Counted from the first letter of the stretch, positions 3,951 through 28,333 are shown. The stretch: DNA of 64,000 nt from Fibrobacteria bacterium (GCA_025360005.1 JANYDA010000004.1:1-64000); one strand, 5' to 3'. Program-made: numbers and translations. The notes: generated by a model not told the origin, from the sequence alone.

Positions 3951-5195
3951 TTACCCTGCCCATGCGTTCATTCTCGGGGGCGCGGTGGTGTAGCCAAGTA
4001 ACCTAAACGTTACCCTAGCCATGCTCCATAGTCCTTCAAAAATGCCCAACAAAAGATCCCGGAGGATCTTGTAGAGATTCATGACCAGGAAGACTATGGT
4101 AATCGCACTCTCCGACGTCTCCTTCAAGCGCCTCATGATGCGTGACAAGCCGTAGCGGCGCTTGGCCACGCCGAAGCGCCCTTCCACCGGAATCCGTTCC
4201 ACTTCATCCTGCCGCTGTTGCCTGCGGTTCTCTTTCCGCGTCTCTTCATCCGCCACCGGCCGTCCCAACATGGGACCTGACAGCCGTATGCCGCGCGCCT
4301 TGCACCACGCAATGTTCTCGCGCGTCAGGTAAATCTTATCCGCGTGAATCGATGCAGGCCAATACCCCATGCGCCGATGATAGGCCGCGGCTTGGCCGAT
4401 CAGGTCGCCGCACTCGTTGTAGGCGTCGAAGGATAAACGATCCACAAAACTCATCCCATCAATCACCGAGAGGGATAGCTTTGCGCCAAACTCCACGGGA
4501 CATCCGGCTTTGCCGCGTACAATAGGCCGCACATGAGGCTTCCACACACTGACGATCCGATCGGGTACGCTTCGCCGCTCCCCTTCCTTCAGCGAGAAAA
4601 GAATGCGTTGCTGCCGCTCCAGTTCCGCCACCACCAACAGCGCACGGTAGAGCCGCTTCCCAATCGATTCCAATGGGATGTCCTGATGCAAACGCGCGAT
4701 GGACTTTTGGTTCCGGCGGATGCAGCGCAGTTGATACCGTAACGCCCGGCGCAGCTTCTGGGATGAGAGCTTGCGGGAACGGATGGCACTGAGAAAGGCC
4801 ACACGTCCCTTCTTGCGGTAGGTCCGCGGTTTAACGGCCTTCCGCAACGAAGTGGGGCGTACGACCCACAGGGCATCGACAACCGCCTCCGTCACTTCGC
4901 GGGCTTCGTTCAATAGACTCAGGTCATTGGGGAAGCGGATGTCTTCGGGGGCGCAGGTGGCATCCATGAGAAGCTTGCCTTGTGGCGGCATCGATTCTTC
5001 TTGAACAGTCGCAGGGCCTGCGTCGGGACCCGGGCTCGCATCGGGAGCGGACGACAAAGGCGACGATGAGGTTGACGAGGGCGGCTCGGTTTCCTTTTGT
5101 GGTTTATTGTCGGACCTCGCCAAGCCTTGCAGCGCGATGCGCTCGTTGATGGCCTTGAGCATTTCGGCGGATAGGCGTTTCCGGAAATGGACCAA
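3951..5195 (-). pseudogene. N-terminally truncated DDE transposase, IS5/IS1182 type
   Basis: The 414-codon frame opens only at a TTG inside the conserved VHFRKRLS motif. Family members have about 80-100 more residues before this point. In the same frame the expected upstream text RRRPRFALDAPFDASTL is present, but it is cut off by a TGA at 5247-5249. The catalytic DDE triad is still recognisable: D in LLMDATCAPEDI, D in SIHADKIYLTREN and E in PVEGRFGVAKRRYG. A Ser/Pro-rich low-complexity linker lies near residues 38-65. With no proper start and an internal deletion at the 5' end, it is unlikely to make active transposase. Confidence 0.7.
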
Positions 5196-10969: not shown

Positions 10970-12105
10970 CGCGATCCGTCCCCGCCCCGGTCTGCCGGCG
11001 CGAGCGTTTCCGCAAAAGCCGACTGCATGCGTCTGGCCGCGGCCGCGGCGCCGTAATGGGCTTGGGCGGCTTCCCGGTCCTCCGCCAACAGCGCTTCGCC
11101 GGGAAACGCGGCGAACACTCCCGCCACTCCTTCCGCCAACCGGGCCGGCGTGTCCAGATCTAGAGCCGTCATGGTGGGGAACTGGCGGGCCAACTCGGAC
11201 AGGTTGCCGGTGCGGCTGGCGAGCACGGGTAACCCCAAGGATACCCCTTCGATGGCCGCCTTCCCGAACTGTTCGGCCTGGCGCGGATTCTCGCCGGTGG
11301 GCATCACCAATAAGGAAGCCCCTTGCAGGGCCGATTCCAGCCGGGAGTTCTCGATATGCCCCAGGAACTGTACGCGGGAAGCCAGTCCCAGGGATTTTGC
11401 CAAGGCGGCCAGGCGCGCCCGTTCCGGACCGTCGCCGACTATGCGCAGCCGGTGACCCGGCAATAGGGCCAGGCTTTCCACCAAAAGGTCCACGCGCTTA
11501 AGCGGGATCAGGCGCCCGACATAGGCCAGGCAGCGCGCGCCTGCGTCCGCCCGCAATGTCCCGCGGGGCCGGATCCACAGCGGGATGACGAATACCTTCC
11601 CCGGGAATCCCGTGGCGGTTATCCTATCCTTGATTTCACGCGTGGGAACGATGCACGCCCGGTAGCGCGCGAACGCGAGCTTCTGCAAAAGCGGGAAGGG
11701 CCATGGCAGGCGTTTGGGACGGTTCTCGGCGCTGTAGCAGAGCAGGGGTATCCCCATGCCGGCAGCCATGCGGCCCACCTGCCAGGTGGCAAGGCACCAG
11801 GGTTCCTCCCAGCAATAGATGGCGGCCGGTCGCAGGCGGCGCAATAGGCGGTCTAGGCCCAGCCAGAGGAACAGGGAATTGCGGCCCGTGCCCAACGTGG
11901 CGAGGGGATGGACGGACGCCTCCCCGTAACCGCCGCGATACGGGGAGGGGCGCCCATAGGCATGACCCAGGGAACGCGCTTTCCAGAAAGAGGGGACGAT
12001 CAAATCCACCCGGTAATCGGTCCAGCCTTGGAACGCCAGGCGGTTCTCGTCCGCCGCCAGGGGATGCCCGATCACCGCTATCCGGCGCGACGACGCTTCA
12101 GGCAT
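10966..12105 (-). CDS. GT4 family glycosyltransferase
   Basis: 379 residues with a GT-B fold. The second half has the classic donor-binding region: AYVGRLIPLKRVDLLVESLALLP, RIVGDGPERARL, VQFLGHI, and the E-x7-E-like segment GKAAIEGVSLGLPVLAS (EQFGKAAIEG). The N-terminal acceptor half contains SAENRPKRLPWPFPLLQK. It overlaps the polymerase gene by 8 bases upstream and the GT9 gene by 4 bases downstream. It is predicted to add a sugar to the repeat unit on the cytoplasmic face. The sugar is unknown. Confidence 0.8.
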   Translation of the reverse strand: MPEASSRRIAVIGHPLAADENRLAFQGWTDYRVDLIVPSFWKARSLGHAYGRPSPYRGGYGEASVHPLATLGTGRNSLFLWLGLDRLLRRLRPAAIYCWEEPWCLATWQVGRMAAGMGIPLLCYSAENRPKRLPWPFPLLQKLAFARYRACIVPTREIKDRITATGFPGKVFVIPLWIRPRGTLRADAGARCLAYVGRLIPLKRVDLLVESLALLPGHRLRIVGDGPERARLAALAKSLGLASRVQFLGHIENSRLESALQGASLLVMPTGENPRQAEQFGKAAIEGVSLGLPVLASRTGNLSELARQFPTMTALDLDTPARLAEGVAGVFAAFPGEALLAEDREAAQAHYGAAAAARRMQSAFAETLAPADRGGDGSR

Positions 12106-13651
12106 GGGCGCCTCCGGGCCATTGCAAGGAGCGTCCGGGCGGGCTGGCGGGTTTGTCCTTGGCCATCCGCGAGGTAGCGGCGGTCTGGCCGGCAGCCGTC
12201 TCCAAAGCCTCCTGTGCCCGCCATTGGCGGTAGAACCTGGAGATGCATCCCATCGTGAACCAGAAGAAGATGTCCCCGGGCGGAGTGTGGAGGTGCGTTC
12301 CCGTAAGGTTCAGGACGCTGAGCATGAAGATGATCGTGCATAGCAATCGCATCAGCTCCACGGCCTCCTTATCCTTGGAATGGGCGATGAACTTCATGGC
12401 CCGGTAGAAGCCGATGAATACGATGGTCAGGAAACAGACGAACCCGGGATAGCCTATCTCGCCGAGCACCAGGAAATAATAGCTGTGCGCGTAGCCGGTG
12501 GTGCCTTGGCCCTTGCCGAATGGGAAATAGAACGATGTATAGATGATCCCGGCCCAGGTTTCCATCCGCTTCTGCACGCTGTATTCCTGCAGGGGATTGG
12601 CCAGCGCGGCGGTGCGGTTTGTGATCATCGTCTCGGTCAAATTGGGGTTTTTCCTGTTCAGCTTGGCTGAGATGACGGCATTCTGGGCCATGCCGCCGCC
12701 GCTCCCGCCTCCGCCCTTGAGGGTGTTGGCGGCGACCCCGGCGGCCATCAGAACGATCAGGGCCCATTGGAGCCATGCCTTTTTCAAACGCAGGAAGACC
12801 CCGTAGAACAGGAGGCCGGCCACTACCGCCAACCAATTGGTGCGCACGGTGGCGATCATGATGGGCGGTATGGACGCGATGGTCATCAGGATTCCGAAGA
12901 AGAGCAGGTAGCGTCCCTTGGCGAACATCCAGAATATGCCCAGCATGAACAGGATGGTCATCCCGTCCGACATGGCGGCGGGCGAGACGTAGGTGGAAAA
13001 AGGCCTCACCACGCCGTCGATGCGCAAGGTGGTGAAGGTTATCGAGTCCAGCCACTTCTGCTCGAAATTCGTGAAGCCGAAAAGGATTTGGTTGATGCCG
13101 TACAAGGCGGTGAAGAAAAGCAGCCAAGATCCGTATCCCAAGAGGGCACGGGTTTCCTTGTAGCCGGTGAGGACATAGCTGCCCGCGAAAAAGAAAAAGA
13201 CGTACAGCCCGTTGAACTTGAATCCGTACAGGCCTTCCTGGATGCCCAATTGCGAGCCCACGAACACTTTGGCGAAGAGGAGCAGGGTATAAGCCACGAT
13301 AAGGATTGAAAACACGTCCTTGGACCGCTCTTTGTTCATGATCCAAAGCAGGAGCAGGGCCATGATGAGGCCGGCCATGACGCCGTCGGAGATGAGCATC
13401 AGGTAATCCAGGGCCGGGCGTTCGCTGACCAGATAATACATGCGGCGGAACAAGGGCGTGAACAGGGGAAGGCAGAACAGGTAATACACGCCCACCTTCG
13501 GGAATTTCAGGGTGGGGATGAGGAAGAAGGCTATGCAGAAGATCGCCGTCTCCATGCGGCTGGGTATATGCATCAAACGGTATACGAAGCCGAAGCCCAG
13601 CAGCAGCAGGATGGGAAAAGTGAGATACTTTAAAAGCGCGGATTTGATCAT
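12098..13651 (-). CDS. O-antigen ligase/polymerase-like membrane protein (Wzy-type)
   Basis: A 517-residue polytopic membrane protein with about 11-12 membrane segments. A large loop near residues 310-380 contains NRTAALANPLQEYSVQKRMETW and the segment FPFGKGQGTTGYAHSYYFLVLGEIGYPG, a pattern of Wzy_C/WaaL-like O-antigen polymerases and ligases (Arg and His in periplasmic loops). In an operon with Wzx, Wza and Wzc homologues, polymerisation of lipid-linked repeat units in the periplasm is the most likely role. The C-terminal 50 residues are soluble. It overlaps its neighbours by a few bases on both sides. Confidence 0.72.
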   Translation of the reverse strand: MIKSALLKYLTFPILLLLGFGFVYRLMHIPSRMETAIFCIAFFLIPTLKFPKVGVYYLFCLPLFTPLFRRMYYLVSERPALDYLMLISDGVMAGLIMALLLLWIMNKERSKDVFSILIVAYTLLLFAKVFVGSQLGIQEGLYGFKFNGLYVFFFFAGSYVLTGYKETRALLGYGSWLLFFTALYGINQILFGFTNFEQKWLDSITFTTLRIDGVVRPFSTYVSPAAMSDGMTILFMLGIFWMFAKGRYLLFFGILMTIASIPPIMIATVRTNWLAVVAGLLFYGVFLRLKKAWLQWALIVLMAAGVAANTLKGGGGSGGGMAQNAVISAKLNRKNPNLTETMITNRTAALANPLQEYSVQKRMETWAGIIYTSFYFPFGKGQGTTGYAHSYYFLVLGEIGYPGFVCFLTIVFIGFYRAMKFIAHSKDKEAVELMRLLCTIIFMLSVLNLTGTHLHTPPGDIFFWFTMGCISRFYRQWRAQEALETAAGQTAATSRMAKDKPASPPGRSLQWPGGAHA

Positions 13652-16763: not shown

Positions 16764-17399
16764 TCACACTGCGCCCCGGCCCAGGAATACGGTGGGGAAG
16801 GTGGCCAACAGGATTTTGAAATCGATCAGCAGGGATGCGTTCAGCGCATAGTGGACATCCAGATCCACCATGTCGTCGAACTTGAGGTTGGACCGCCCGC
16901 GCACCTGCCAAAGGCCGGTCATTCCCTGCGGCACCGTCATGCGGACCTTCTGGATTTCGTTATACTGGCTTACCTCGCGCAACAAGGGCGGGCGCGGGCC
17001 CACCAGCGACATGTCCCCGCGCAGCACATTCCAGAACTGGGGCATTTCGTCCAGGCTGGCGCGGCGGAGGACGCGGCCCACGCGTGTGATGCGGGGATCG
17101 TTGTGCAGCTTGAAGGTGATGCCGCCGGACTCGTTCAGGTTGTCCAGCTCCCATTGCCGCAGGTGCGCGCCCACTTTCATGGTGCGGAACTTGATGAACT
17201 TGAAGCGGTGCCCGTATTGGCCCACGCGCGTCTGGACGAAGAAGATAGGTCCGCCGGAATCCAGTTTGATGAGCGGGACCAGCAAGATGAAGGCGGAGAA
17301 CAGGGCCATCAGTCCCAGCAGCGCGCCGACGATGTCGACGGCGCGTTTTACGCTGCGGTAAACGCTATCCCCGATCCCCTGCCGAATGCTTTGTCCCAT
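16764..17399 (-). CDS. Undecaprenyl-phosphate sugar phosphotransferase (WbaP/ExoY-type initiating enzyme)
   Basis: 211 residues comprising the short, catalytic-only form of the polyprenyl-phosphate hexose-1-phosphate transferase family. An N-terminal membrane hairpin (VDIVGALLGLMALFSAFILLVPLI) is followed by GPIFFVQTRVGQYGHRFKFIKFRTM, then RRASLDEMPQFWNVLRGDMSLVGPRPPL and PGMTGLWQVRGRSNLKFDDMV (read with a Q before GMTG). These are all signature motifs. It loads the first sugar phosphate on undecaprenyl phosphate and so starts each repeat unit. It lacks the extra five-helix N-terminal region of long WbaP enzymes. It overlaps the upstream GT4 gene by 35 bases. Confidence 0.9.
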   Translation of the reverse strand: MGQSIRQGIGDSVYRSVKRAVDIVGALLGLMALFSAFILLVPLIKLDSGGPIFFVQTRVGQYGHRFKFIKFRTMKVGAHLRQWELDNLNESGGITFKLHNDPRITRVGRVLRRASLDEMPQFWNVLRGDMSLVGPRPPLLREVSQYNEIQKVRMTVPQGMTGLWQVRGRSNLKFDDMVDLDVHYALNASLLIDFKILLATFPTVFLGRGAV

Positions 17400-18612
17400 A
17401 GGTTTCCAACAAGCGCATTGCGCATGCTTCCGGAGCGAACTCCGCCTGGATGGCGGATGAAACGTCCCGCATGCTCTCCGGGATTTCCCGGTCCCTCAGC
17501 TTACATTCTCTTATTTTTCCGGCCAGCATGGCGCTGTTTTCCGCGGGAAACAGCATTCCCCGCGCGGGCCTGTCGATGATTTCCGGAATGCCGCCCACTT
17601 GGCTGCCCAGCAGGAAACAGCCGCGGGACAACCCCTCCAAAGCCGCGTAAGGATAGTTCTCCATCAGGGACGGCAAAACTAGCACTCCGGCCCAGTCATA
17701 ATGCCGGTGCATCAGGGCGTGCTCACAAGGGCCGGCGTATTCCAGCGTATATCCCGTCGCGTCCGCAAGCCCTTTTTCCGCACGATGCCGCTCCAGGTCG
17801 CGGATGCATTCCGCATCCAGATCCCGGGTGGGACGATGCATATGGCCCACCACGCGCAGGTGGAGGCCCCGTCCTTCCTCACCCAGGGAGTCCAAGGCCC
17901 GCAGCAACACCTGCAGGCCCTTGCGGTGCTCTACGCGTCCCACATAGAGGAGATGGGAGGCCCGTTTCGAGCCCCAGTCGATGGGCTGTTCCCAGAGGCG
18001 CAACGGGTTCCGGCTCACCACCGCTTCCCTGCCCACCCGCAAGGTTTTGCGCAGGTAATCCCCGGCCATGTAGTGGCTGGGGGAGACCAGCAAGTCCGCA
18101 CGCAGGCAGGCCTTGCGTTGCAGATTGAGCAGCAGGCGCCGCTCCAGGAAGTTGTCCGCGTAGGCGTCCATCCAACCCGTATGCACCCGACAGACAAGGC
18201 GGGGATGCCTGCCGTCCGGGCGCCCGCCGCAGGAGGGCGGGAAAAAGGCGCCTTCCCCCGACGTTTCCGGGAACTCCCAGGCGTCGAAACCGGAAAGTCC
18301 CGGAAGCGCGGCCAGGTACGCGGAAGCCGTGCGGGCCCAGGTCAAGGCCTCCAGGTAATGCGGCAGATGCCTGCGGTACCATGCGCGATACGGGTAGAAA
18401 ATCCGCCCCGGCGGAAAAGGGTGTTTCCCCATGGGCACGCGATGGACGGTGATGCGGTCTTGGGAGAGGATTTCCGCTTTCGGCCCGTTGCAGACCACAT
18501 GGATCTCATGCCCGTTGCGGGCGAGCAACCCGGCCGCCGCCGCCGAGTAGGTGGCGATGCCGCCCACATGCGTGAGCGGAGGATACTCGCGCGAGAGGAT
18601 GCCGATTTTCAC
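17365..18612 (-). CDS. GT4 family glycosyltransferase
   Basis: 415 residues from a GTG start at 18612, which forms a GTGA overlap with the upstream gene stop. The start gives VKIGILSREYPPLTHVGGIATYSAAA, the glycine-rich acceptor loop of GT4 enzymes. The donor half has LLYVGRVEHRKGLQVLLRALDSL, RVVGHM, VLVLPSLMENYPYAALEGLSRGCFLLGSQVGGIPEI with the E-x7-E motif. Part of the exopolysaccharide operon. The acceptor is unknown. Confidence 0.82.
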   Translation of the reverse strand: MKIGILSREYPPLTHVGGIATYSAAAAGLLARNGHEIHVVCNGPKAEILSQDRITVHRVPMGKHPFPPGRIFYPYRAWYRRHLPHYLEALTWARTASAYLAALPGLSGFDAWEFPETSGEGAFFPPSCGGRPDGRHPRLVCRVHTGWMDAYADNFLERRLLLNLQRKACLRADLLVSPSHYMAGDYLRKTLRVGREAVVSRNPLRLWEQPIDWGSKRASHLLYVGRVEHRKGLQVLLRALDSLGEEGRGLHLRVVGHMHRPTRDLDAECIRDLERHRAEKGLADATGYTLEYAGPCEHALMHRHYDWAGVLVLPSLMENYPYAALEGLSRGCFLLGSQVGGIPEIIDRPARGMLFPAENSAMLAGKIRECKLRDREIPESMRDVSSAIQAEFAPEACAMRLLETYGTKHSAGDRG

Positions 18613-19895
18613 GCCGGTACCGCCGCCCGCATCCACGCGTCCAGCAATAGCGGGGGAATGCTTTTGCCACGCTCGCGCAAATAGGCGGCCTGGGCCGTCA
18701 GCGCCTTACCGTCCGCGCCTGAGCAATGCGCGCGCAGCGCGTCCAGCCAGGAATCCTCATCCCCCGGGCGCGGGGACAATGCGCCCGTGATCGCGGCCAC
18801 GGCTTTCATTTCTCCCGTCGCCGAGCCGATGCAGGCAAGCCCGGCGGCCATGCCCTCGAAATAGACGTAAGGGCTATTCTCCCAAAGCGAAGGCGCCACC
18901 AAGACGCTGAAACGGCGGAACAGGGCCGCGCGCGCTTCCGCAGGGCAGGGGGGTTCCCAACGGATCCTGAAGTGCAGGGGCGCGGGTAGCGATTCGATCA
19001 GGTTCCGTACCGATTCGGAATAAGCGCCGGGCGAAGCCGAACCCACCAGTGTCAGGGTCGCATAGGGTTGCTCTTGCGCAAGGCGGATGAAGGCGCGCAC
19101 CAGCACGGACACGCCTTTCCTTTCCTCGATCCTGCCCAGGTACAGGAAGCGATGCGGCCGGATGCGGGTGGGCCGCGGGGCATTGCGCTCCGCAATCTCG
19201 GCGGGATCGGGATCCGCGGCCTTCCAATCCGAATCATCCTGGGGCAACCGGGAAGGATGGGCCGGAGGAGGGTTCTCCGTTACCCGTATCAGCGCAGTTA
19301 CCTCGGCCAGGGAGTCGTGGCAATCGCCAGGCAGGGGGTTGGGAATATGCTCCCAGCCGGTAAGCCAGGGAAGCTTTTCCCGCATGAACTCCGCGGACGG
19401 CGCCGTGATCCGGCGCGCCCGGCGCAGCGCATCCCGTTCCCGCCAACTGCCAAGCTTGGCGGCCAAGCGATCGATGGCCTTGGCAGGCGGGCCGGAGCGC
19501 ACCAGGAAATCGGGGGTGTGGATGCGCACCAGGATCCTTTCCCGCAACGGCCGGTTCCGCAAAGCGAAAAAACCATAACCCAGGAAATCGGCGAACTCAT
19601 ATACCCTGTCGGGGCGATCCCCGGATCGCAATTCCCCGCTCAGCCAATAGGCCTGTTCCCACAGGACATTCTCCCGGTACAGCCAGCGATAGGCCAAGCC
19701 CCGGAAAGGCCGCCGCAGCCAGGGTTTGCGACCGATGGGGAAGGCCGATCCGTGCGGATAGGCTTGCGGATTGTGGGTGTATACGCGCGCGCCGTGCCCG
19801 GCTTCCAGGCAGATGCCTATCGCCAGGATGAGGTAGGTCCGGATGCCGCCGCCCGCCGCGTCCGGAGGTTCCGGGTCGATGAAGACCACTTCCAC
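18609..19895 (-). CDS. GT4 family glycosyltransferase
   Basis: 428 residues. The N-terminus MEVVFIDPEPPDAAGGGIRTYLI carries the GG loop of GT4 enzymes. The C-terminal half has FLYLGRIEERKGVSVLVRAFIRL, LTLVGSASPGAYSESV, and SLWENSPYVYFEGMAAGLACIGSATGEMKA (E-x7-E). It is similar in layout to the next gene (SLMENYPYAALEG there, SLWENSPYVYFEG here), which suggests an old tandem duplication. It lies 30 bases downstream of the flippase gene. Confidence 0.82.
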   Translation of the reverse strand: MEVVFIDPEPPDAAGGGIRTYLILAIGICLEAGHGARVYTHNPQAYPHGSAFPIGRKPWLRRPFRGLAYRWLYRENVLWEQAYWLSGELRSGDRPDRVYEFADFLGYGFFALRNRPLRERILVRIHTPDFLVRSGPPAKAIDRLAAKLGSWRERDALRRARRITAPSAEFMREKLPWLTGWEHIPNPLPGDCHDSLAEVTALIRVTENPPPAHPSRLPQDDSDWKAADPDPAEIAERNAPRPTRIRPHRFLYLGRIEERKGVSVLVRAFIRLAQEQPYATLTLVGSASPGAYSESVRNLIESLPAPLHFRIRWEPPCPAEARAALFRRFSVLVAPSLWENSPYVYFEGMAAGLACIGSATGEMKAVAAITGALSPRPGDEDSWLDALRAHCSGADGKALTAQAAYLRERGKSIPPLLLDAWMRAAVPA

Positions 19896-21646: not shown

Positions 21647-23800
21647 TCAATCCTTCTTCGCCAGATAATTGTGGTAGTAATGCTTATAGTACCCGTACGA
21701 ACTATAGCCCTTGGTGATGTCCACGTCGTTGAGAATGCAGCCGAGCACGCGGGCGTTTACGTTCCGCAAGGTCTGCAAGGTCCGCGAGCTCACGCCCAAG
21801 GTGGTCTTGTTGGCCCGGATCACCAGCACCACGCCATCCAGCTTGGTGGCCAGGATGGCCGCATCGGTGACGGCGATGACGGGCGGGGTATCGAAGAGGA
21901 TGTAGCGGTAGCGCTTCTTGAGCTCCTCCAGGAAAGCATCCATCTTCTTGGAGCCGAGCAACTCCGCGGGATTGGGCATGTAGGCCCCGGCCGTCATCAC
22001 CTTGAGGTTGGTTCCGGGGATCTCGCGGCAGACTTCGTCGATGGTGTTGGTGCCGGCGAACAACTCTCCGAAGCCGGGACCGCGATCGAATCCGAACAGG
22101 TGGTGGTTCACCGGGCGGCGTAAATCGGTATCGATGACCAGGGTTGGCTCGCCTTGCTGAGCGAAGGACAGCGCGGTGTTGGCCATGGTCAGGGACTTGC
22201 CTTCGCCCGGCCCGCTGCTGGTGATCAGCAGGGTCTGGATAACCTTGTCCGGGCTGGAGAATACGATATTGGTTCGCAGCGATCGGTAGGCTTCCGCCAC
22301 CACGCTTTCTTCGTTCTGCGGACCTATCATCAGGCCCGGATACTTGTTGCGGATCTGCTGCTTCTTGCCCTTGGTGAATGTGCGCTTTACTTCCAGATCA
22401 GATTTCTTGGCGACGATGTGGGGGATGGTTCCCAACAAGGTGAGCGCCAGTTGCTTCTCCACGTCGTCCGGGGACTTCACGGTATCGTCCATGAACTCGC
22501 GCAAGATGCTGAGCCCGATGCCGATGGCCAGGCCTACCACCAGGGAGACCGCGTAGAAAACGAAATCGCGGCGCGGCACCGGCTCGGTGGGAACCTGGGC
22601 CGCGTCCACCAGCTTGAGGCCACCGGATTTCGATTCCATCTGGATCACGGCGTCCTCCAACCGTTCGGACAGACGCTGATGGGTGGCGATATAGCGCGCC
22701 AGCAGGTTGTCCAACTGGGTGAGCTCGAACTCCTCCTGGCCCAACTTTGGGTGGCCTTCCCGGTAGTTCACGATGGCGCGCTTGAAGGCGTCCAGGCGGG
22801 CGCGCTTCATGTTCATTTCCGATTCGGAAGAGTTCAACTCTTTGCGGATGGCCTGCCATTGGTTGAGCATGCCTATGTCCTGTTTGCTTTCGTTTCCCCG
22901 GCTGAGCCGGACGATGCCGCTTTCCGCGGAGGCCAGGTCCTTCGTAAGCTTGCTGTCCGGGGTCAAGGTGATCCCCAGCCGCACCATCTTTTCCTTCTCT
23001 TTCTCCAGCACTTTCATCTGGGCGCGCAGGGAGTCCAACTCCTTCTCGCTTCCGCTGGCTGCGGGCTTGTTTATCACGTTGTCCAGCGACTTGAAATAAC
23101 TGCGCTTGGCTTCCAGGTTGGCCTTATCCAGTTCAAATTTCACCAGCTCATCCTGGTAATTCTTCTCCAGTGCGGTCAGTCCCGCCGCATCGCCTATGCT
23201 TTGCAGGCTGGAGATATCCGACTTGCGGTTCCGCTCCATCTGGATGTCGTCGCGCTTCTTGATGCAGACGTCTATTTGCTCTTTGATGGCCTGGATGGCT
23301 TTGTCGGCCTCTTCGTTCTCCACCTTCCGGCAGAATACGATCAGGCTGTCGGTGGCGGTTTTCACCAAGGCGTAGCTGAGCGCGGGGGAATTGGTCTTAC
23401 TGGTCAAGGTGATGAACGTTTCCACGCTGCCTTCGCCCACAGCCAGGTTCTGGGTGATGTATTCCTTCTGCTTGGTAGTGATCCCCGCCTTGGCCAACTG
23501 TGCCGCGGTACCCTGGACCATGCGGTCCAGGAAGGCCTGGCTCTGGAAAATGGCGCGGTAGAATCCGATGTTCTTGGTGTTGGAGCTATTGTCCATCAGC
23601 ACCGAGGCCGCGTTCACGGGCTTTTCGTCCATTACCAATTGGCTGGAAGTGATGTAGGAATCCGGCAGACGCTTGATGAACCACCAGGTGGGCCCCAGGA
23701 ACGCCGAGATCGAGAACAGCAGGATGTACCTGCTCTTGACCAGCAGCCGGAAATAATCCCCGAATGCCAGTTCGCGTTGTCCTTTGACCGGTTCGCTCAT
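21647..23800 (-). CDS. Wzc-like polysaccharide co-polymerase / BY-type tyrosine autokinase
   Basis: 717 residues. The N-terminal Wzz domain has two membrane segments (about residues 29-47 and 410-430) flanking a long periplasmic coiled-coil. The cytoplasmic kinase has Walker A SSGPGEGKS (about 528-536), Walker A' LVIDTDLRRP (about 554-563) and Walker B YILFDTPP (about 634-641). The last 20 residues contain seven tyrosines in a GYSSYGYYKHYY cluster, the autophosphorylation tail. Such proteins control chain length and export with the Wza-like channel encoded immediately upstream (ATGA overlap). No cognate low-molecular-weight phosphatase gene is seen in the window. Confidence 0.93.
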   Translation of the reverse strand: MSEPVKGQRELAFGDYFRLLVKSRYILLFSISAFLGPTWWFIKRLPDSYITSSQLVMDEKPVNAASVLMDNSSNTKNIGFYRAIFQSQAFLDRMVQGTAAQLAKAGITTKQKEYITQNLAVGEGSVETFITLTSKTNSPALSYALVKTATDSLIVFCRKVENEEADKAIQAIKEQIDVCIKKRDDIQMERNRKSDISSLQSIGDAAGLTALEKNYQDELVKFELDKANLEAKRSYFKSLDNVINKPAASGSEKELDSLRAQMKVLEKEKEKMVRLGITLTPDSKLTKDLASAESGIVRLSRGNESKQDIGMLNQWQAIRKELNSSESEMNMKRARLDAFKRAIVNYREGHPKLGQEEFELTQLDNLLARYIATHQRLSERLEDAVIQMESKSGGLKLVDAAQVPTEPVPRRDFVFYAVSLVVGLAIGIGLSILREFMDDTVKSPDDVEKQLALTLLGTIPHIVAKKSDLEVKRTFTKGKKQQIRNKYPGLMIGPQNEESVVAEAYRSLRTNIVFSSPDKVIQTLLITSSGPGEGKSLTMANTALSFAQQGEPTLVIDTDLRRPVNHHLFGFDRGPGFGELFAGTNTIDEVCREIPGTNLKVMTAGAYMPNPAELLGSKKMDAFLEELKKRYRYILFDTPPVIAVTDAAILATKLDGVVLVIRANKTTLGVSSRTLQTLRNVNARVLGCILNDVDITKGYSSYGYYKHYYHNYLAKKD

Positions 23801-24744
23801 TTCTTCAGCACCGATGAGATGACGAACCAGGCCGTGAGCAGGGCGACGATATCGCGGGCCATCTCCAGGGTCTTGGTCCAGGTTATCGTCTTGCCGTAAA
23901 CGATCATCATATCGCCTTCGGAAAGCAGGGGCAGATCCTCCGTCTTGCCGTTGTCGATGAACTTCTGCATGTCCAAAAGGAAATCCGCCTTCTGTCCGCC
24001 CGGGCTGCTGATGATGCGCACCTTGGACATGTTGGCGTCCGGAGCCGGCCCGCCCGCCAGGTAAAGCATATCGAATACGGAAGAGGCCTCGCCGATGGGA
24101 TAGAAGCCGGGCTTGTTCACCGAACCCAGGATCTTCACGTACTTGGATTTCTTGGAGGAAAGCAGGATGATGCGATCGCCGTCCAACAGGCCCGGCAGCA
24201 AAGTAAGATCTCCCGACGCCAGGAATTTCTGGAGATCGTAGTAGCTGGCGTTCTCATCGCCCTGGTTCTTGTGGACTATCTTCACGCGGTTGAGATCCGC
24301 CGTCTCCATGTTCCCTCCCGCCGCCATTAGGACTTCCTGCAGGCTGGACTTGGGCGGGACCATCACCAGTCCCGGCTTCTTCACCTGGCCCAGTATGTAA
24401 AGGGTGATGGGGTTTTCAGTCAAGACGCTTACCAGCACCATGGGCGACTCCACCAGCTTGGCCAGCTTGTAGGCCAGCAGATCCTGCAATTCGCTGGTGG
24501 TCTTGTCCACCACCGAAGCATCCTGGTACAGCGGATAGTCGATGGTGCCGTTGTCGTTGACGCGGACTATCTGGGTGAGATCCTTGTCGCCCTTCACCAC
24601 GATGCTCAGCATCATGCCGGCTTTGATGACGGTAGCCTGTGCGGGAGAAGTCAAAATGCAAAAGGCAAAAGGCAGAAGGAAAAATTTAATGAAGGAAAGA
24701 ATTCCGCCTCTTACATTTTGCACTTTGAATTTCGGCTTTTTCAT
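23797..24744 (-). CDS. Wza-like polysaccharide export protein with SLBB domains
   Basis: 315 residues. A signal peptide runs through FFLLPFAFCILTSPAQA (cleavage near residue 37). Then come a Poly_export domain (IKAGMMLSIVVKGDKDLTQIVRVNDNGTIDYPL) and two SLBB domains (ITLYILGQVKKPGLVMVP and KYVKILGSVNKPGFYPIGE). A C-terminal helix (ALLTAWFVISSVLKK) could span the outer membrane as in Wza. No lipobox cysteine is obvious. The ATG at 24744 is preferred over 24867 because it begins the signal peptide. The first 60 codons overlap AT-rich repeat-like sequence. Confidence 0.88.
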   Translation of the reverse strand: MKKPKFKVQNVRGGILSFIKFFLLPFAFCILTSPAQATVIKAGMMLSIVVKGDKDLTQIVRVNDNGTIDYPLYQDASVVDKTTSELQDLLAYKLAKLVESPMVLVSVLTENPITLYILGQVKKPGLVMVPPKSSLQEVLMAAGGNMETADLNRVKIVHKNQGDENASYYDLQKFLASGDLTLLPGLLDGDRIILLSSKKSKYVKILGSVNKPGFYPIGEASSVFDMLYLAGGPAPDANMSKVRIISSPGGQKADFLLDMQKFIDNGKTEDLPLLSEGDMMIVYGKTITWTKTLEMARDIVALLTAWFVISSVLKK

Positions 24745-24760
24745 TTTGCATTCTACCTGG
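24655..24760. repeat. AT-rich repeat-like segment overlapping the Wza-like start, copy B (divergent)
   Basis: The segment contains AAAATGCAAAAGGCAAAAGG, CATTTTGCACTTTGAATTTCGG and TCATTTTGCATTC, the same A/T-rich TGCA/TTTGCA vocabulary as the intergenic repeats at 21582 and 31680. Here it spans the start codon and signal-peptide codons of the export gene. Similarity is loose, so this may be convergent. Confidence 0.4.
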
Positions 24761-24797
24761 TTGACCACACCGATTATACTTCCTGGATCGCTCCCGC

Positions 24798-25835
24798 CTA
24801 GGCCGGCTTGAATACGAATGGCGATTTCATTTCCACGGGGCCGCCGCCGGAGGGAGGGAATATCCAACGTTTGATGCGACGGAGCAGGTCCGCGGTGAAG
24901 TCCGGATCGTCCAAAGTGGTTTCCGATTTCAATATGGATACGTTGGAGACGGTTCCGTCTTCCTCGATAACCATAATTACGGTCACCTTGCCCTCCAAAG
25001 CGGGATTGGATTTCAACCTTTCTTCATAGAGCATGCTCACCATGGATTGCTTCTTGTTGATGAAGGTGGCCACTTCCGTGGGGCTGCGGTTGCCCGTGAA
25101 TTTCGCGGAACGATCCATCTGTTCCGGTTTTTCCGCCTCCGCCACCCCGATTTTGCTCAGCGTGCCGCTCTTGGCGTTCTCGAAGCCCTTCACCAGCTTG
25201 TCGATGCCGGAGGTGGCGGCTACGGCATCGCCTTTGGAGCGGGGTGGAGGATCGCCATCCCGGTTGAAGTCCCCTTTCTTACCATCGATCTTGGTCAATC
25301 CCTCCAGGTTGCCCAGGCGCGCGTCCAGGTCCCCGAACCCGGCGAAGCCGTCGCTCTTGGCGCGTCCTTGCCGGCCCACGGCCTTGCCGGCGGTAGCGGG
25401 TCCCTTGCCCGAGAGGATGGAAAGCACCGCCGCCTTGGTGATACGCTCCTGAACCTTCACAATCTGTTCGCTCACGGTGTGGCGGGAGCGTTCGATTCGC
25501 GCCGAAGCCGATGCGCTGCCTTTGACTATCGGGTTGGCGCGCTTGGCCGGGCCGGCTTTGGCCTCTTGCGGTTTCGGGATCGCCTTGCCGGGCGGCTTCA
25601 ACGGCATGATGATCTTGGAAACCCTATCGGAGAGATCTTCCAGGGAAGGCTTGTTCAACGCGCTATAGTCCACCGAGCGGACGCCCACCAGCAACAGGAT
25701 GAAAAGGAGAAGGCAGGCGATGAAACTGGTGATGGAAGGGACGTCGATATGATCGAAGAGGCCCCCCTTGTACCCGGCGCGGGGATCTTCCGGCGGTTTC
25801 CCCTTCGGCTTTTCCTGCAGGTTCTCAGTCGACAT
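24798..25835 (-). CDS. AgmX/TonB-like energy-transducing envelope protein
   Basis: 345 residues. A short cytoplasmic N-terminus leads to one membrane segment (ITSFIACLLLFILLLVGV, about residues 34-51). A Pro/Lys/Ala-rich periplasmic spacer follows, then a C-terminal domain of about 100 residues. It contains NKKQSMVSMLYEERLKSNPALEGKVTVIMVIEEDGTVSNVSILKS and ends in FPPSGGGPVEMKSPFVFKPA. This is the AgmX/PglI C-terminal and TonB_C-like fold (VxFxIxxDGxVxxVxVxxS). It directly follows a TolQ and two ExbD genes, overlapping the second ExbD by 11 bases, so it is probably the protein moved by that motor. Its outer-membrane partner is not in the window. Confidence 0.8.
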   Translation of the reverse strand: MSTENLQEKPKGKPPEDPRAGYKGGLFDHIDVPSITSFIACLLLFILLLVGVRSVDYSALNKPSLEDLSDRVSKIIMPLKPPGKAIPKPQEAKAGPAKRANPIVKGSASASARIERSRHTVSEQIVKVQERITKAAVLSILSGKGPATAGKAVGRQGRAKSDGFAGFGDLDARLGNLEGLTKIDGKKGDFNRDGDPPPRSKGDAVAATSGIDKLVKGFENAKSGTLSKIGVAEAEKPEQMDRSAKFTGNRSPTEVATFINKKQSMVSMLYEERLKSNPALEGKVTVIMVIEEDGTVSNVSILKSETTLDDPDFTADLLRRIKRWIFPPSGGGPVEMKSPFVFKPA

Positions 25836-26316
25836 CTTTTTTGCTCACCGCCAGGGAGAAACTGCTGTAGCCGTTGTCGCCGCATGTCGCCAGTACCTTT
25901 TGCAAAAGCCAATAAGGGATCAGCTTGTCCCCTTGGATGGTCAGCTTCCCGCTGAAGGAAACGTTCTTATCGTACTCGGCTATCGCCTCCGTCTGCTTGC
26001 GCTTGTCTTCCAGGAAGGTGGCCAGCCCGGGGATGACGTTCTCCCCGCGTTCCTGCTCTTCGCTAACCAGGGCCACGGGATTGCCGTCCGCCAGGATATG
26101 CTTGGCGCTGATGGAGATGTTCAGCATCTGCTCCGGCCGGGTCTTGGCGCTGCTTTCGGGCAGCTCCAGGTTCTTGGTCTGCGTCACGATGTCGCCCTCG
26201 GTGGAAAAGTTCTTCAGGAGGAAGAACACGAGCACGGTGAGCACGTCCACCAGGGAGGTCATTTGCGGCTTCGCGAATTCCCCTCCGCCCTTGCGGCGCT
26301 TGCGTCCCAGCTTCAT
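25825..26316 (-). CDS. ExbD/TolR-family protein, with the membrane aspartate
   Basis: 163 residues. A basic N-terminus (MKLGRKRRKG) precedes the single membrane segment MTSLVDVLTVLVFFLLKNFS. The conserved proton-carrying aspartate is Asp24. The periplasmic domain follows (DKLIPYWLLQKVLATCGDNGYSSFSLAVSKKD). With the TolQ-like channel it should convert proton flow to movement of the AgmX/TonB-like partner. It overlaps that gene by 11 bases and lies 29 bases after the other ExbD. Confidence 0.86.
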   Translation of the reverse strand: MKLGRKRRKGGGEFAKPQMTSLVDVLTVLVFFLLKNFSTEGDIVTQTKNLELPESSAKTRPEQMLNISISAKHILADGNPVALVSEEQERGENVIPGLATFLEDKRKQTEAIAEYDKNVSFSGKLTIQGDKLIPYWLLQKVLATCGDNGYSSFSLAVSKKDVD

Positions 26317-26345
26317 GGCCTAAAGTCCCTCATGGCTGCTGCGGT

Positions 26346-26876
26346 TCATTGGTACACCCCGCCGGAGAGCAGGATGTTCGGGAATTTGCTTTCGCGCATC
26401 ACGTCCATGGCGGTGATGATGTCCTGGTACACGATGTTGGAATCGATCAGGAGCACCACGTTCTCAGAAGTCGGGTATTCCTCTTTCAGCTTTTTCATGA
26501 AGCCGCCCAGGGTGGGATAGTCGTAACCTTTTGCGCTCTTAGGGATGGGATCGAGTTTGCGCCCTTCGCCGATCACCTGGAATCCGCTTTCGCTCACCAC
26601 CACGGTGATGTCCACGTCCGGGCCCTTGTCTTTGCTGGAGTCGGCCGCGGCCTGGGTTTCCCCGCCGCCGCCTTGGGCCGGAGGCAGATTGAATTTGATC
26701 ACGGCGATTTGGGTAAAGACCACCATGGTCACCAGGAAGGAGATGAGGATGATAAGCATGTTCATCATCGGCGTCATGTCCAGATCGATGGGCGTTCCCT
26801 CGGTTAACCCTCCTCTGGAAGTGATCCCTCCCCGGGACTTGCCCCCCGAAGACGGTCCGGAAACGGATCCGCTCAT
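26346..26876 (-). CDS. ExbD/TolR-family protein lacking the membrane aspartate
   Basis: 176 residues. A Gly/Ser-rich N-terminus precedes IDLDMTPMMNMLIILISFLVTMVV. Family members have Asp where this protein has Asn39 (codon AAC at 26762-26760). The periplasmic domain has DVDITVVVSESGFQVIG and VVLLIDSNIVYQDIITAMDVMRESKFPNILLSGG, normal for ExbD/TolR. The loss of the proton-carrying residue while the second ExbD keeps it suggests an asymmetric pair. The ATG overlaps the TolQ stop as ATGA. Confidence 0.86.
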   Translation of the reverse strand: MSGSVSGPSSGGKSRGGITSRGGLTEGTPIDLDMTPMMNMLIILISFLVTMVVFTQIAVIKFNLPPAQGGGGETQAAADSSKDKGPDVDITVVVSESGFQVIGEGRKLDPIPKSAKGYDYPTLGGFMKKLKEEYPTSENVVLLIDSNIVYQDIITAMDVMRESKFPNILLSGGVYQ

Positions 26877-27559
26877 CCCTGTTGGCCCGCCGCGCCGGGG
26901 GCCTGCCTGCGGTCCGGATTGGTTTTGCGCTGGGCGTTCAGGAAATTCACCAGGCGCAGCACGGTCTCATCGATCTGCTCCAGCAACTGATTGGATTTGG
27001 ATCCCAGCCAGGTGAAGGCCACCATGCAGATCATGGCCGACATCAGTCCCAAGGCGGTGGCGTTCAAGGCCAAGGTGATTCCGCGCGCCAGCAGCTTGCT
27101 TTTCTGGGACGGGTCCGCGGATTCCAGAGCGGAGAAGGCTTCCTGCAATCCGAAGATGGTTCCCAACAGGCCCACCAGGGTGCAGAGGTTGGCAAGCAAG
27201 CCCAGGTAATGGGTCCTTTTTTGGAGCCGGGGCACCTCCCGCAGCGCCACTTCTTCCAGGGCGTCCTTGATTTCCTCCGCCGTGGAGGATTGCTCGTACT
27301 TCCAGATGCCGGCCTCAAGGATCAGTCCTAGCGGGGTCCCGGTGGCATTGCAAAGCTTCCTGGCATCGGCGATTTTTTCCTTTCGGATCAAGGCCGTGGT
27401 GTCTGCCAGGAGTTTCTTTGCGTTAACGCGGCATTTGATAAAGAAAAACCAGATCCGCTCGAAAATGACCGATAAACCCAATCCCAGCAAGCCCAGGATC
27501 AAGTATTCAACAGCCCCCCCTTCGTCCACGAATTTGGCAATTTTCATCAGGATTTCCAT
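26873..27559 (-). CDS. TolQ/ExbB/MotA-family proton channel protein
   Basis: 228 residues. One membrane segment lies near the N-terminus (VEYLILGLLGLGLSVIFERIWFFFI). A cytoplasmic helical region follows, then two segments near residues 120-145 (YLGLLANLCTLVGLLGTIFGLQEAF) and 165-190 (ITLALNATALGLMSAMICMVAF). The TxxGLxGTxxG pattern and the small residues in the last segment fit the MotA/TolQ/ExbB domain. It is the first gene of the motor set and probably of the whole minus-strand operon. The region upstream is a divergent intergenic gap. Confidence 0.9.
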   Translation of the reverse strand: MEILMKIAKFVDEGGAVEYLILGLLGLGLSVIFERIWFFFIKCRVNAKKLLADTTALIRKEKIADARKLCNATGTPLGLILEAGIWKYEQSSTAEEIKDALEEVALREVPRLQKRTHYLGLLANLCTLVGLLGTIFGLQEAFSALESADPSQKSKLLARGITLALNATALGLMSAMICMVAFTWLGSKSNQLLEQIDETVLRLVNFLNAQRKTNPDRRQAPGAAGQQG

Positions 27560-27874
27560 AAAACCTCTGGCTTTCCAAACAACGGCGTGATGCTGCGATT
27601 ATCCCATTCCGGGAATTTTGCATGCAATGGAACCCGGGGAAGAAGAGGTAATAAGGGGGTAAACTCGGTCCGGCTTGCAAAGACGCTGTGGGGGCTCAGG
27701 CAACCTTTCGATGGGAAAGATGGGATTCAGGGGAGGTGGGTTTAGGCCCTGATTTCCCCTCTAATCCAACAAAAAACGCGCATTTTCTTGCCCCGGTCCC
27801 TTGTGCATTCTCCGGATCCGCTATATATTGCTAAGCATCGGACACGGTTCCCCACCGTTTTTAAGGAAGGACTT
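27560..27874. other. Divergent intergenic region between the tolQ-like and SH3-like genes
   Basis: No gene is seen. It must carry the leftward promoter of the motor/exopolysaccharide operon, which I could not pin down, and the rightward promoter described separately. A GGTAAAC heptamer at 27659-27665 matches the motif found near 56100-56330 but stands alone here. Confidence 0.5.
27801..27829 (+). promoter_or_regulatory. Sigma70-type promoter for the SH3-like secreted protein
   Basis: TTGTGC (27801-27806) and TATATT (27824-27829) are separated by 17 bases. The ATG follows at 27875 with AAGGAAGGA in front of it. Confidence 0.55.
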
Positions 27875-28333
27875 ATGAAGAAGATTATCGCTTTCCTCCT
27901 GCTCGGCTTGGCCACGTTTGCCATGGCGGGATCCAAGACTGAAACCTCCACGGTCACCCGGATCAAATCCGGCGGCGCCGCCATCTATAAATCGGAGGCA
28001 TCGGATGAAGGCGATAAGATCGCCGATCTTGGGACCGGCGATGAAGTGACAATCTTGAAGCAGAGCAAAGCGCGTTCGATGATCAAGACCTCCGGTAATA
28101 TCAAGGGTTGGGTGGAAAACAGCACCATCGAAAAAGTGAAGATCACCAGCGGTGGTTCCCACAACCTGAAAGACGTCGAAGTCGTGGGCTGGCTGGACAA
28201 TCCTTCCGCCGTTTATATCTTGGATAATTCCAATCCCGATATGAACGCACTTCCCCTGGATCGCAATTTCAGCAGCGAAATCGTCGAGAAAAAGGACCGC
28301 GAAGAAGTAGAGCGCGCCTACGACGAGAACTAG
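27875..28333 (+). CDS. Small secreted protein with SH3-like domain
   Basis: 152 residues from the ATG at 27875, with AAGGAAGGA upstream. The signal peptide is MKKIIAFLLLGLATFAMA, so export to the periplasm is expected. Residues about 25-85 (VTRIKSGGAAIYKSEASDEGDKIADLGTGDEVTILKQSKARSMIKTSGNIKGWVENS, split here) have the pattern of a bacterial SH3 (SH3b) domain, ending in the characteristic GWVE. The C-terminus is acidic and of unknown fold. It has its own promoter and terminator. The target is unknown; SH3b domains often bind peptidoglycan peptides. Confidence 0.75.
   Translation: MKKIIAFLLLGLATFAMAGSKTETSTVTRIKSGGAAIYKSEASDEGDKIADLGTGDEVTILKQSKARSMIKTSGNIKGWVENSTIEKVKITSGGSHNLKDVEVVGWLDNPSAVYILDNSNPDMNALPLDRNFSSEIVEKKDREEVERAYDEN

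Follow-up and report, generated by a model that had tools for sequence, protein, structure and literature searches.

Gene content and organization of the locus

The window analyzed here, a stretch of 64,000 nt, is part of contig C56 in a Fibrobacterota genome of 4.98 Mb. A preliminary description of this DNA had placed a TolQ/ExbB-like gene, two ExbD genes and a gene for a TonB-like arm at positions 24,798–27,559, reading into a Wza-Wzc-Wzx locus 53 bases on. Searches with Pfam recovered all four genes, encoded on the minus strand, and the distance between the arm gene and the in-frame ATG of wza (24744), which lies on the same strand, is indeed 53 bp (Table 1). The motor genes themselves are even more tightly packed: those for ExbB and ExbD1 overlap by 4 bp, 29 bp separate ExbD1 from ExbD2, and the ExbD2 and arm genes share 11 bp. 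The gap before wza was searched for a terminator-like site and none was found.

Table 1. Features of the motor-exporter locus (positions counted from the first letter of the window).
Feature	Position	Strand	Evidence
ExbB/TolQ/MotA-family motor subunit, 228 aa	26873..27559	(-)	PF01618, 90 bits; alignment with E. coli TolQ/ExbB; tree
ExbD1 (ExbD/TolR family; Asn for proton-binding Asp)	26346..26876	(-)	PF02472, 46 bits
ExbD2 (ExbD/TolR family; Asp kept)	25825..26316	(-)	PF02472, 50 bits
GltG-type arm, 345 aa	24798..25835	(-)	TonB_C Pfam, 33 bits; NF033768, 74.5 bits; NF033760, 60 bits
Arm-wza gap, 53 bp	24745..24797	(-)	terminator-like site not found
Wza/OPX-type export protein, 315 aa from ATG 24744	23797..24744	(-)	Poly_export and two SLBB; C-terminal hydrophobic/amphipathic segment
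Wzc-type co-polymerase, 717 aa, BY-kinase domain and Tyr-rich tail	21647..23800	(-)	TIGR01007, 183 bits; PF13807 at cut-off
Wzx-type flippase, 542 aa	19926..21554	(-)	PF13440, 79 bits
GT4 glycosyltransferase	18609..19895	(-)	PF13692, 63 bits
GT4 glycosyltransferase	17365..18636	(-)	PF00534, 65 bits
Initiating sugar transferase (Bac_transf)	16764..17399	(-)	PF02397, 209 bits
Wzy_C-like membrane protein, putative polymerase	12098..13651	(-)	PF04932, 23 bits, below Pfam cut-off of 31.7
Small secreted SH3-like protein, divergent neighbor outside the operon	27788..28333	(+)	conserved in genus and beside the motor-less G010 locus

The polysaccharide genes downstream continue on the strand of the motor and encode Wza, Wzc, Wzx, glycosyltransferases, the initiating transferase and the Wzy_C-like protein. 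An OPX protein, a BY-kinase co-polymerase, a flippase and an initiating transferase, all of them encoded here, together make up a Wza-Wzc (Wzx/Wzy) exporter, and the domains present in Wza, Wzc, Wzx and the sugar transferase are those of Wzx/Wzy-type export systems (class 1 or 3 OPX, PMC9603273). A gene for a DDE-type transposase (3951–5195) is located close to the distal end of the polysaccharide genes.

Conservation of the motor-exporter linkage

A profile of the ExbB subunit was searched against 168 Fibrobacterota genomes, most of them MAGs. The scores were bimodal, with 27 genomes at E values of 1e-97 to 1e-133 and the next at 1e-70. These 27 carriers represent nine families: the window's genus contributes six genomes, and the remaining 21 are spread over eight further families. 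From the rest of the families in the class, the same search returned no ExbB of this type. All carriers but one (26 of 27) have wza-wzc after the motor-arm block, a count that depends on the contigs. On one contig, wza comes directly after the arm gene in 24 carriers; in G093 and G098, one contig ends within the arm gene, and another, beginning within it, runs into wza-wzc. The sole exception is G167, where the motor cluster and the orthologous Wza-Wzc genes are located on different contigs and are apparently unlinked. Chance adjacency of motor and exporter was rejected because the arrangement is conserved in nearly all carriers. The direct genetic coupling to the polysaccharide exporter, read at first from a single locus, thus extends across nine families, and the comparison with related genomes leaves the original reading intact in that the order motor-wza-wzc is kept.

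Within the window's genus, the block ExbB-ExbD1-ExbD2-arm-Wza-Wzc-Wzx is intact beside the SH3 gene in all six genomes, with obg beyond the SH3 gene in the five where obg was detected. Between the genus and the other families, ExbB shows about 50% identity and Wza and Wzc about 35%, while the upstream and flanking genes differ. The exporter genes are orthologous to the motor-linked ones of the other families, both for Wza (E 8e-65; next match in the host 6e-7) and for Wzc (E 1.5e-147; next match in the host 3e-31). A second Wzc of the host is unlinked.

This type of Wzc was found full-length in 25 of the 27 motor genomes and partial at a contig end in the other two (raw genome counts, uncorrected for kinship). 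Two genomes outside the 27 also carry it. In one of them, G097, the contig begins just before Wza. The other, G010, is an order-mate of the window's host (genome 79% complete) and has orthologous wza-wzc-wzx genes beside the same SH3 neighbor (46% identity) with no motor between them (L155:6994-8673). As this locus shows, the exporter can occur with no motor beside it. Relatives were also sought in plasmid and viral collections, where none were found, and in a scan of genome contigs, which returned Fibrobacterota records and one Bacteroidales record.

Family placement of the motor

The relationship of the motor to known systems was examined in a midpoint-rooted tree of ExbB proteins, comprising the Fibrobacterota motors and E. 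coli TolQ and ExbB and containing several long outgroup branches. The 27 motors form one clade (T1, support 90/86), with a second clade, T2, as its sister. T1 and T2 join a class-wide group of clusters, the C58 type (L046, L057 and L091), with 99/99 support, and this joint group is separate from E. coli TolQ and ExbB as well as from the remaining motors of the host.

The C58-type cluster of the host (L046, G000:C58:24000-40000) encodes TPR proteins of 753 and 1247 aa, an ExbB, ExbDs and a GltG-like arm; one of its ExbDs has a long insertion (270 aa, Asn) and the other has the Asp. An Agl-Glt core complex has been reported for Fibrobacter succinogenes (Luciano et al. 2011, PMC3169522), and the C58-type cluster, which has the gene kinds of that core, fits this report. 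Genes of these kinds (AglR-, AglQ-, AglS- and GltG-like, together with TPR proteins) are likewise found in the window's set and its putative partners, with one MotA/TolQ/ExbB-family subunit and two ExbD-family subunits in a single operon, as in Agl-Glt/Nfs. However, the window's set belongs to a separate paralogous clade, which the search did not find in other parts of the class, and it has its own TPR/OM genes and the linked Wza-Wzc. From these comparisons, the window's motor looks like a specialized paralogue within a larger Agl-Glt-like group.

The sister T2 clusters (L145-L151, e.g. L149:10549-16903) combine an Asn/Asp ExbD pair with a TonB arm, a TonB-dependent receptor and a lipoprotein-like gene. 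The receptor of L149 (12881-15730) itself carries an N-terminal TonB_C domain.

Motor residues and the ExbD pair

Both channel threonines of the ExbB/TolQ family are kept in the ExbB of the window (LLGTIFG and NATALGL). The two ExbD proteins are distinct in their proton-binding position. ExbD2 has the Asp in 27/27 orthologues (TSLVDVL in the window), whereas Asn takes its place in every one of the 27 ExbD1 orthologues (TPMMNML). The same Asn/Asp pattern is found in the T2 and C58 motors where read, with Ser for Asn in one. AglQ and AglS are each described with a conserved transmembrane Asp (PMC9389320), a feature of both ExbD-type subunits that is lacking here in ExbD1. The simplest reading of these residues would be an axle in which two unlike ExbD proteins are paired and only one proton site is present. 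For AglQ and AglS, heterodimer formation is not known (PMC9389320).

Natural fusions of ExbB and ExbD were also encountered (L053:9708-10994, 428 aa; L152:7537-8844, 435 aa), with both Pfam domains above cut-off. Each fusion gene has as neighbors an ordinary ExbB gene, a further ExbD gene and the gene for a GltG-like arm. As judged from their sequences, such fusions would represent a fixed 1:1 motor subunit, which is unusual for a 5:2 motor.

The arm protein

The arm consists of a transmembrane helix (around residues 32-54), a charged, Pro-rich linker and a C-terminal AgmX/PglI/TonB domain, which is the layout of a GltG arm. The TonB/AgmX-like C-terminus noted at the outset is borne out by the NCBIfam model for the AgmX/PglI tail (NF033768), which is matched well above its cut-off of 40, and by the fold of the domain, which matches TonB C-terminal domains. 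The match to the GltG profile (NF033760) covers profile positions 334-648, its C-terminal half. All nine aligned arm members match this profile at E <= 0.001, with 60-113 bits among the members compared. Among the controls, neither the T2 TonB arms nor TolA from E. coli matched it, and one TonB_C protein from the host that contains TPRs matched over the tail only (33 bits).

The arm is not a full GltG. Its score misses the equivalog cut-off of 650, no match to an FHA domain was found in it, and it is about half as long as GltG (640 aa, PMC3169522). Overall, the profile matches support an arm of the GltG type rather than of the TolA/TonB type. The preliminary proposal of an Agl/Glt-like motor consequently holds in part: it agrees with the type of arm, the position in the tree and the TPR/OM-like partners, but the full-length GltG cut-off, the FHA domain and one of the two ExbD aspartates are missing.

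In their transmembrane helix, the Chitinispirillia-type arms keep an S-x-x-x-H motif like that of TonB and TolA. In the window's genus, Cys and Phe are present at these positions.

TPR and outer-membrane-type partners

In Chitinispirillia-type genomes the cluster has the order MerR-OMP1-OMP2-TPRa-TPRb-small-ExbB-ExbD1-(STAS)-ExbD2-GltG-Wza-Wzc, and the fixed upstream order holds in the Chitinispirillaceae records L062-L065 and in most other carriers. The two TPR proteins co-conserved with the motor, which are candidate counterparts of GltC/GltD/GltE, measure about 1160 and 1000 aa, and the cluster further includes a small exported protein and a MerR-like regulator. In the window's genus, the six outer-half genes keep this order but form a locus of their own, which is spread over contigs C9 and C23 in the host and intact in G001, G002, G004 and G005. 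Of the 27 genomes with the motor, 26 encode TPRb, and none of the others among the 168 gave a match of comparable strength. In these counts, likewise uncorrected for kinship, motor, TPR and Wzc genes go together almost without exception.

OMP1 and OMP2 are putative outer-membrane proteins of about 360-400 aa that have no Pfam match. They were assigned to this type from their signal-peptide-like N-termini and, for OMP1, from a strand-rich structure predicted at low confidence (pLDDT 39). An outer-membrane location for both, and a barrel for OMP1, is thus only suggested.

A STAS-domain protein is encoded between ExbD1 and ExbD2 in most carriers outside the genus (L123-L129, L131, L133-L140, L142 and L143); it was not found at this position in G064, G096, G098 and the window's genus. 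The insertion hints at a cytoplasmic regulation of the motor. A STAS gene also lies about 5 kb downstream of the second locus of the genus (L083:11214-11645). STAS proteins are common.

Proposed function and alternative explanations

The closest functional precedent is found in Myxococcus xanthus, where AglRQS together with Nfs moves the Exo polymer around the spore surface (Wartel et al. 2013, PMC3858216). This polymer is exported by the Wza homologue ExoA (PMC3858216). Shared with the window's system are a motor with one ExbB-like and two ExbD-like subunits, an arm of the GltG/NfsG type, TPR and OM partners, and a polymer exported by a Wza-type route, the polymer being in Myxococcus what is moved. 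The two differ in several respects. In Myxococcus, motor, nfs and exo each have a locus of their own, whereas most carriers here combine the motor, the arm and Wza-Wzc in a single operon. Furthermore, the window's Wzc has its kinase domain in the same protein, a STAS protein is inserted between the ExbD genes in Chitinispirillia-type genomes, and one ExbD is without the Asp. A proton motor in the same operon is not described for the Wza-Wzc systems in the literature examined, and a search of the open-access literature found no account of a motor-Wza operon in Fibrobacterota, although an earlier account may exist elsewhere.

The conserved pairing points to the polymer or its exporter as the target of the motor. 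In the explanation that we favor, with a probability of about one half, an Agl/Glt(Nfs)-like trans-envelope motor handles the exported polysaccharide mechanically at the cell surface. The product of the four genes would be an inner-membrane motor of the Agl/ExbB-ExbD kind that is driven by protons, in which the ExbB ring would enclose the pair of different ExbDs with the Asp on one only. This motor would move the GltG-type arm, which would reach across the periplasm with its TonB-like C-terminus. The arm may act on an outer assembly of the two large TPR proteins and the two OM-type proteins (encoded at the second locus in the genus), as well as on the Wza-Wzc exporter from the same operon. By analogy with Agl-Nfs and Exo, the output would be the driving, orienting or spreading of the polymer at the surface. 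It speaks against this explanation that the arm helix of the window's genus is devoid of the His that other members have and that occupies the motor-contact position in TonB/TolA-like proteins (PMC12204202). Further points against it are the G010 exporter, which has no motor next to it, and the apparently unlinked motor and exporter of G167.

Cyst formation and flagellar swimming have been described in strains of Chitinispirillum (PMC4814513, PMC11700989). A role in handling a coat is therefore conceivable, should these cyst formers carry the cluster.

A related, tentative possibility is that of an exporter with a built-in proton-driven motor. The arm would then pull or turn Wza or the polymer, so that export or placement is powered, and the axle would be an obligate heterodimer with one proton-carrying site. 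Active export belongs to this possibility.

The linkage may instead reflect shared regulation rather than contact. Motor and exporter would then be co-transcribed parts of one surface program, for example a cyst or biofilm coat, with the motor acting on another outer-membrane target. The separability of the halves fits such an arrangement, given the motor-less exporter of G010, the motor of G167 without an adjacent exporter and the outer half at another locus in the window's genus. However, the linkage to wza-wzc was kept in all carriers but one, although the TPR/OM half moved away in the genus, and this type of Wzc is confined almost exactly to motor genomes. Mere co-regulation is hence considered rather doubtful.

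It is unlikely that the motor serves gliding, moving surface adhesion complexes as in the A-motility of Myxococcus with the polysaccharide as the slime or adhesive that is gripped. The GltG-type arm, the TPR partners and the Agl-like motor clade would all be expected of such a machine, and slime polysaccharide aids adhesion in Myxococcus (PMC3858216). According to Luciano et al., however, the core complex alone is insufficient for motility (PMC3169522), and, should Chitinispirillum and its relative ANBcel5 carry the cluster, it counts against gliding that they are described with a polar flagellum and that gliding is unmentioned (PMC4814513, PMC11700989). The original suggestion was of a gliding or trafficking motor, or one that energizes export, coupled to the polysaccharide. 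The coupling is conserved, but gliding itself does not find support, in view of the GltG cut-off, the FHA domain, the ExbD1 Asp and the flagellated cultured Chitinispirillum.

The motor families and the C-terminal fold of the arm are shared with ExbBD-TonB and TolQRA, from which the window's set differs by its two different ExbDs, its GltG-matching arm and the absence of a receptor, TolB or Pal from its loci. An ExbBD-TonB importer energizing an outer-membrane receptor would agree with the TonB fold of the arm domain and with the sister T2 motors, which drive a TonB arm beside a receptor gene. It is nonetheless very improbable, because neither locus contains a TonB-dependent receptor such as that of the T2 clusters; OMP1 and OMP2 do not match Pfam families, and the arm, unlike those of T2, matches GltG. 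A Tol-Pal-like system for outer-membrane integrity, to which TolQ as the best-scoring named NCBIfam model for ExbB would point (59 bits, cut-off 221), is likewise very improbable, because the host's only TolB lies elsewhere (contig C45, beside another ExbB/TolQ-type gene); the motor cluster contains no TolB or Pal, all full-length TolQ and TolR cut-offs are missed and the motor falls outside the TolQ/ExbB branch. The set thus does not group with ordinary Tol-Pal or TonB systems, in keeping with the preliminary description, as the arm is of the GltG type and the motor stands apart from TolQ/ExbB and the Tol/Ton-like motors of the host.

Implications

The invariant Asn/Asp pair of ExbD proteins would make the motor a naturally occurring asymmetric form of the 5:2 type. 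For capsule-type polymers that have reached the outer membrane, how or whether they are energized and placed is still an open problem. What Agl/Glt-like core complexes do in bacteria other than gliding myxobacteria has been described as unknown (PMC3169522). The conserved motor-Wza-Wzc operon makes it possible to test both questions together.
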